A stretch of DNA of 64,000 nucleotides from Verrucomicrobiaceae bacterium (GTDB lineage: Bacteria > Verrucomicrobiota > Verrucomicrobiia > Chthoniobacterales > JAATET01). Below the pieces are notes generated by a model, which ran no database searches, was not told the origin of the DNA, and was given only the letters and a program-made list of their open reading frames with translations. A program made the position numbers and the translations under genes. Of this stretch, positions 22,063 to 23,590 are shown one piece after another. The number at the start of each line of letters is the position of its first letter. Positions within the stretch are counted from its first letter, which is position 1. The stretch spans positions 54,028 to 118,027 of the forward strand of contig JAIYAZ010000135.1 of NCBI GenBank assembly GCA_027488755.1, given 5' to 3'.

Positions 22063-22401
22063 TTAACCGGGGGGCCAGGCGAGGGGGCGTCCGCCGAGCA
22101 GGTGGATGTGAAGGTGGGGGACGGTTTCGCCGCCGTCGGGGCCGTGGTTGATGACGACGCGGAAGCCGGTGGCGTCGAGGCCGAGGGCGCGGGCGACGTC
22201 GCCGGCCTTGAGGAGGAGGTGGCCGAGCAGGGCGTGGTCGGCGGGAGTGGCCGCGCCGAGCCGGGGGATGGGGCGCTTCGGGACGAGGAGGACGTGAGTG
22301 GGGGCCTGCGGGTGGATGTCGCGGAAGGCGAGGCAGTGTTCGTCCTCGAAGACGATGTCGGCCGGGATTTCGCGGGCGATGATTTTTTCGAAGAGGGTCA
22401 T
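22063..22401 (-). CDS. HIT-family purine nucleoside phosphoramidase (HinT-like)
   Basis: A 112-residue HIT protein: FEKIIAREIPADIVFED at the start and the histidine triad VPHLHIHLLGGR near the end. HinT enzymes hydrolyse AMP-lysine or AMP-phosphoramidates. It is 66 bases upstream of the ABC-like gene and follows the palindromic tract R4. Confidence 0.93.
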   Translation of the reverse strand: MTLFEKIIAREIPADIVFEDEHCLAFRDIHPQAPTHVLLVPKRPIPRLGAATPADHALLGHLLLKAGDVARALGLDATGFRVVINHGPDGGETVPHLHIHLLGGRPLAWPPG

Positions 22402-22485: not shown

Positions 22486-23046
22486 TCAGGAGAGCTGGAG
22501 GTGGAGCTCGGCGGCGCGGGGGCTGGAGTCGAGTTCCTCGCGGATGAAGCGGACGATTTCGGAGCGGAGGCCGGCGCAGTCGGTGCGCCAGTTTTTCGCG
22601 CTGCGGAGGAGCTTCACGCAGGGCTGGAGGTCGAAGAGTTCGACGCGGAGGGAGGGCGAGTCGGCGATGGTGCGGAGTTCGTCCTGGAGGAGGCGGAAGA
22701 AGAGGAGTTCGTAGCCGGTGCCGGCCTCGCGGGCGAGGCGGGCGAGGGAGAGCCGGAAGGGCGGGGGGAGGGGCTCGAAGTGGGTGGCGACGTCGGCGTA
22801 GCCGATGACCTGGAGGACGGATTGGACGGTGGTGCGGAGCTGGCCGAGGGCGAGGACGGGTTCGTCGAAGTCGTTGCGTAGGTAGGTGGCGACGGTTTCG
22901 GTGACGTGTTCGGCGAGCCACCATTTCTGGTAACCGGCGCGCTGGGCGGCGCGGGCGAGGCCCTCGGCGAGCCAGGGGGTCTCGAAGTCCATGATGCGGC
23001 CGTCGTCGAAACGGACGGCGGGGAGGAGGTTTTTGAACGCGATCAT
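22486..23046 (-). CDS. NrdR-coupled protein, possible degenerate ATP-cone
   Basis: A 186-residue protein of unassigned family. The first 90 residues (RFDDGRIMDFETPWLAEGLA ... VLQVIGYADVATHF) resemble the ATP-cone layout seen in NrdR itself (KRDGRxxPFD ... evA..Y), without the basic KR pair. The C-terminal half is helical with a CVKLLRSAKNW segment. It starts inside the nrdR stop (ATGA overlap), so translation is coupled. A role together with NrdR is inference from position and this weak resemblance. Confidence 0.55.
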   Translation of the reverse strand: MIAFKNLLPAVRFDDGRIMDFETPWLAEGLARAAQRAGYQKWWLAEHVTETVATYLRNDFDEPVLALGQLRTTVQSVLQVIGYADVATHFEPLPPPFRLSLARLAREAGTGYELLFFRLLQDELRTIADSPSLRVELFDLQPCVKLLRSAKNWRTDCAGLRSEIVRFIREELDSSPRAAELHLQLS

Positions 23047-23562: not shown

Positions 23563-23590
23563 AGATTGACTCAATATCTTGTGGTGTCAA
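23563..23590 (-). promoter_or_regulatory. nrdR promoter with NrdR box in the spacer
   Basis: Minus strand: -35 TTGACA (23585-23590), 16-base spacer, and -10 CAATCT (23563-23568). The spacer read on the plus strand is ACTCAATATCTTGTGG, close to the NrdR consensus acaCwAtATcTwGtgt as known from other bacteria. Binding there would block RNA polymerase. Only one box is visible; many NrdR targets have two. Confidence 0.65.

Follow-up and report, generated by a model that had tools for sequence, protein, structure and literature searches.

What kind of protein starts within the stop codon of nrdR in a Verrucomicrobiaceae genome, and does it act on NrdR? NrdR is the near-universal repressor of ribonucleotide reductase (RNR) genes and, to our knowledge, has been described as acting alone, through nucleotide-driven oligomerisation of its own ATP-cones. 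In the 64,000-nucleotide stretch of DNA analysed here (the window), the gene that follows nrdR, hereafter the partner (Table 1), was originally predicted to encode a weakly conserved, ATP-cone-like protein translationally coupled to nrdR, which might modulate NrdR or serve as a second nucleotide sensor.

Table 1. Features of the nrdR–partner locus, with position in the window, strand and basis of the assignment.
nrdR-coupled pseudo-ATP-cone protein gene (partner)	22486..23046	(-)	ORF, 186 aa, stop codon included
N-terminal degenerate ATP-cone of the partner, residues 1–91 (fold over ~8–91)	22774..23046	(-)	AlphaFold, Foldseek, Pfam in relatives, residue table
C-terminal beta-alpha-alpha-beta-alpha-alpha-beta domain of the partner, residues 92–186	22489..22773	(-)	AlphaFold model, pLDDT 85
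ATGA overlap, nrdR stop/partner start	23043..23046	(-)	window sequence
nrdR, 164 aa	23043..23537	(-)	TIGR00244 184.5 bits, PF22811, PF03477
HIT-family gene, next in cluster after the partner	22063..22401	(-)	neighbour comparison
NrdR-box-like 16-mer CCACAAGATATTGAGT	23569..23584	(-)	score 11.1 of 12.8

The predicted arrangement of the two genes was confirmed: the ATG of the partner and the TGA of nrdR share four nucleotides (ATGA), an overlap that constitutes translational coupling, and the NrdR encoded upstream is canonical, with a Zn-ribbon and an ATP-cone. As the window is GC-rich and carries long spurious open reading frames on both strands, the partner frame was checked for selection; comparison with two close relatives gave a dN of 0.10–0.12 against a dS of 0.66–0.96, identifying the partner as a selected protein. 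Homologues were present in 86 of 97 relatives, most of them 185–186 aa in length, and an alignment of 25 family members contained 30 invariant columns. Named matches belonged to Terrimicrobiaceae, Chthoniobacterales and Spartobacteria, which assigns the window to the order Chthoniobacterales of Verrucomicrobiota. The weak conservation remarked on originally therefore applies to comparison with NrdR, but not to the partner's own family.

Structure prediction assigned the N-terminal half of the partner to the ATP-cone fold (a beta hairpin plus a helical bundle). An AlphaFold model built with 25 relatives reached a pLDDT of 87, and its best Foldseek matches against the PDB were class III RNR and NrdR cones, at probabilities of up to 1.0. 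Alignments restricted to the cone superimposed at 2.3–3.5 Å across ~80 residues with modest E-values (3e-3 to 0.1), while the longest alignments extended beyond the cone at large rmsd. The window's partner alone has no Pfam match, and Pfam/NCBIfam annotation returned nothing significant. Among 25 close relatives, however, 14 matched the Pfam ATP-cone (PF03477) at E ≤ 10 (best 4.6e-6), and several long relatives, which share the N-terminal domain of the partner, scored at or above the curated cut-off of 25.8 (e.g. L064 at 40.5 bits and L066 at 33.6 bits). Profile comparison with the NrdD N-terminus and cone gave an E-value of 3e-5 with the short form of the family and of 8e-8 with the long one (see below), and hhalign comparison with NrdR from shallow alignments gave E ~0.005, insufficient on its own. 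A PDB-sequence profile search with short-form, long-form and C-terminal domain alignments returned chance matches only, save for a weak NrdR match to the long form, and a PHROGs search with the partner yielded nothing significant. Our case for cone homology is thus made from the Pfam matches in relatives, the NrdD profile comparison and the predicted fold in combination, and on these grounds the ATP-cone-like N-terminus of the original prediction stands.

Four residues of Escherichia coli NrdR contact nucleotides, namely K53, E59, K65 and, in trans, K76 (PMC12176259). The partner aligns with NrdR without gaps from Met1 through the hairpin (offset 40), placing F13, M19 and W25 of the window's protein at the positions of K53, E59 and K65. 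Across 32 close relatives, the K53 equivalent was F, L or another residue and never K (0/32), the E59 equivalent was M or another residue and never E (0/32), the K65 equivalent was W in all 32, and the K76 equivalent was kept in three. Tryptophan also occupied the K65 position in 26 of 28 Akkermansiaceae-like relatives (taxon labels of this kind are inferred, save for named records), and K53 was kept in only 2 of 30 long forms. In contrast, NrdRs of the same loci kept all four residues in 20 of 20 cases. The canonical nucleotide site has therefore been lost from the partner and is intact in NrdR, marking the partner, by its sequence, as a pseudo-cone from which the canonical nucleotide-binding residues are gone.

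The partner belongs to a family of four forms, designated O (~160 aa), short (S, 186 aa), P (~220 aa) and long (Lg, ~325 aa). Within 289 sampled genomes, all from Verrucomicrobiota, at least 215 carried a member (35 short, ~95 long, 30 O and 55 P, the sum being read by hand from tables), and NrdR itself was present in 277. Forms O and P were found by reading the gene after nrdR where searches with the short and long forms were negative, and their assignment to the family is by profile comparison plus position after nrdR. Short and long profiles matched in hhalign at E 1e-14 to 5e-13. Deep alignments gave 3.7e-6 (short against O) and 2.1e-6 (short against P), collinear through the C-terminal domain, whereas the best of 60 column-shuffled controls reached 5e-3 and 0.04, respectively (best shuffled controls overall, 0.0017 to 0.04). 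With scores so far below those of the controls, we treat the four forms as one family; the cone is hardly recognisable in O and P.

Linkage to nrdR runs through all four forms. For the short form, nrdR was directly upstream in every fetched locus that held the gene start, the Akkermansiaceae-like family included, and within the window's order 28 of the 33 loci have the exact 4-nt overlap. Of the 30 long-form loci fetched, 25 had the gene right behind nrdR, no more than 27 nt away, and forms O and P adjoined nrdR nearly everywhere, mostly overlapping it or close behind. No fusion of nrdR and partner genes was found. The HIT-family gene that comes next in the cluster was present at all 30 short-form loci compared from the window's order and at 29 of 31 O loci, but none of the 30 long-form and none of the 30 P loci, and the nrdR–partner link thus outlives the rest of the neighbourhood. 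Conservation of this linkage, put forward originally as a check on the idea, proved to extend across almost the whole phylum, and the linkage is ancient. The tie of the HIT gene to the short and O forms may itself reflect a functional connection to the nrdR operon.

The association is not obligatory on either side. NrdR works on its own in some lineages, which keep nrdR but lack the partner (f18, f4 and a reduced genome), and in six partner-less loci (L078, L086, L087, L089, L091 and L092) the HIT gene follows nrdR directly, from which the partner appears to behave as a discrete, losable cassette. Conversely, the long form occurs without detectable NrdR in four draft assemblies that are 87–96% complete (G134, G146, G294 and G316), and is unlinked from nrdR in a few other genomes; the long form, at least, may act elsewhere than on NrdR. 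In two of these assemblies (L139 in G134 and L140 in G146) it sits between ymdB-like and cysS-like genes, hinting either that its role is independent of NrdR or that NrdR was lost only recently.

Upstream of nrdR, the window carries an NrdR-box-like 16-mer (Table 1), scored against a presumed NrdR-box consensus. A TTGACA −35-like element immediately precedes this site, which spans 32–47 nt before the nrdR ATG; no second strong NrdR box was found in the window. Within the short-form clade, 24 of 27 loci had a comparable site before nrdR, the frequency in random 110-mers being 1.9%. So did 8 of 16 Akkermansiaceae-like loci, several of them with box pairs 32 nt apart, while random segments of the same loci gave ~2–3%; such sites were present in 1 of 13 long-form and 0 of 9 partner-less loci. 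This distribution makes autoregulation of the nrdR operon probable in genomes with the short form. Elsewhere in the window's genome, its only RNR, a class I nrdB–nrdA pair (L138, G000:C55, 1108–5529, minus strand), is preceded by a candidate NrdR box pair, again 32 nt apart, upstream of nrdB (L138:5663–5710). The 1,089-aa NrdA has a canonical ATP-cone, apparently one of three in tandem, and a role of the partner in lending a cone to a cone-less RNR was accordingly rejected for this genome.

Two further observations concern ATP-cones and NrdR more widely. Open frames of ~450–600 aa with an ATP-cone match occur away from nrdR (G306:C66, G141:C7, G361:C13, G150:C1 and others) and possibly encode ATP-cone NrdB proteins. 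In this clade, the C-terminus of NrdR has the conserved pattern Q-x-x-L-F (QPELF, QRELF or QEELF; residues 157–161 in the window, and in the NrdRs of L001–L033, L086–L093 and L101), with Q157, E159 and F161 invariant in 20 sequences, a tail resembling the bacterial sliding-clamp-binding pentapeptide. As a docking site specific to the partner, the tail (QPELF) was discarded because it is also present where the partner is absent.

The C-terminal domain of the partner belongs to no described family (no Pfam, PDB-sequence or PHROG match), and the short-form domain did not match the long form by alignment. Its Foldseek matches in the PDB were weak, comprising AAA+ fragments and class III RNR (9d3x, TM 0.63–0.67), and those in BFVD, a set of predicted viral proteins, were headed by anaerobic RNR fragments (TM 0.71, probability 1.0, E 6e-3). 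With class III RNR also the top PDB match of the full partner model, and the long-form profile aligning with NrdD residues 18–210 (E 8e-8), the partner could be read as an RNR relic, a class III-like N-terminus made up of the cone and the first part of the barrel, now serving as a pseudo-enzyme or decoy on RNR or NrdR. We regard such an origin and role as unlikely, since the profile score comes from the cone: the long form minus its cone gave E 0.63 and the C-terminal domain profile 0.25, and neither short- nor long-form alignments had significant RNR similarity outside it. Moreover, AAA+ fragments rank equally high in the PDB for this domain, and the partner has neither catalytic residues nor a Pfam RNR match. 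Operon neighbours can also persist without direct interaction, and the occurrence of the long form in genomes without detectable NrdR would suit an unrelated housekeeping protein whose gene has simply stayed in one old operon with nrdR; yet the link to nrdR holds across forms while the HIT gene and the remaining flanks change, the start codons overlap, and the predicted fold matches the domain with which NrdR itself senses nucleotides, leaving coincidental company a distinctly unlikely explanation.

The choice offered by the original prediction, between modulation of NrdR and a second nucleotide sensor, falls towards the former, for which the predicted cone fold and the linkage give the best support and in which interaction with NrdR is presumed. 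A second sensor, whose cone would bind ATP, dATP or another nucleotide and report to NrdR or RNR, draws on the same predicted fold, on L064, a long form that retains K at the K53 position and has R at that of K65, and on a conserved W/WWL motif that could serve a different ligand. The contact positions are nevertheless not conserved in the close relatives of the partner, as counted above, and the residues are replaced in most long forms too; a canonical sensor does not fit this loss, and we consider a sensing role of any kind unlikely.

NrdR switches by re-pairing its ATP-cones, between an inactive, ATP-loaded dodecamer or filament and a DNA-binding tetramer loaded with ATP plus dATP (PMC9110341, PMC12176259). 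We propose, with a probability of roughly 0.6, that the partner is a degenerate ATP-cone, co-translated with NrdR, whose pairing with NrdR adjusts this oligomer switch. The coupling, the linkage, the predicted cone fold, the residue loss and the NrdR-box-like sites of the short-form clade are the observations on which we build; the physical pairing, the direction of its effect, whether as cap, co-repressor or anti-repressor, and the function of the C-terminal domain are what we infer beyond them. The presumably nucleotide-blind cone of the partner would pair with NrdR cones and so set which NrdR oligomers form, and the choice of oligomer would in turn set the dATP threshold for repression of RNR genes and of the nrdR operon itself, with the overlapping start codon keeping NrdR and partner in ratio. 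A broader claim, to which we give slightly less than even odds, is that the whole phylum runs NrdR with a dedicated nucleotide-blind cone, perhaps RNR-derived, that joins the NrdR oligomer; if true, NrdR in Verrucomicrobiota would be a two-protein switch and not a self-contained sensor. In the open literature, coverage of which is incomplete, we found no NrdR partner, no nrdR-linked ATP-cone protein and no report of the linkage; what is new here is an ATP-cone protein with its own gene beside nrdR and its nucleotide-binding residues lost. With a conserved pseudo-cone translated alongside NrdR, dNTP control would gain a second component. Such a cone, shaped by evolution not to bind, would also be a natural test case for the way in which cone pairing works the switch, and its partnership with NrdR would point to a role for a gene family that occurs throughout Verrucomicrobiota.

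Set beside known systems, the partner shares its predicted fold with the ATP-cone family (PF03477), whose Pfam cut-off some of its relatives pass and to which the window's protein is tied through the short–long profile comparison; it differs in having no Pfam match of its own, in the loss of contact residues and in standing alone, attached to neither an RNR nor a Zn-ribbon. It has the cone fold in common with NrdR (TIGR00244) and lies in the same operon, but it lacks the Zn-ribbon (PF22811, four Cys) and DNA-binding region, starting directly with a cone that is degenerate and followed by an extra C-terminal domain. Structural likeness to the N-terminus of class III RNR NrdD is found in the cone and, weakly, in the C-terminal domain, yet the partner, at 186 aa, has no glycyl-radical or catalytic barrel regions and no significant sequence match outside the cone. 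An ATP-cone moved onto another protein is known from NrdB of Leeuwenhoekiella blandensis (PMC5794259), and that cone (5olk) is a Foldseek match of the partner; unlike the partner, it sits on the radical-generating subunit and regulates the enzyme allosterically.
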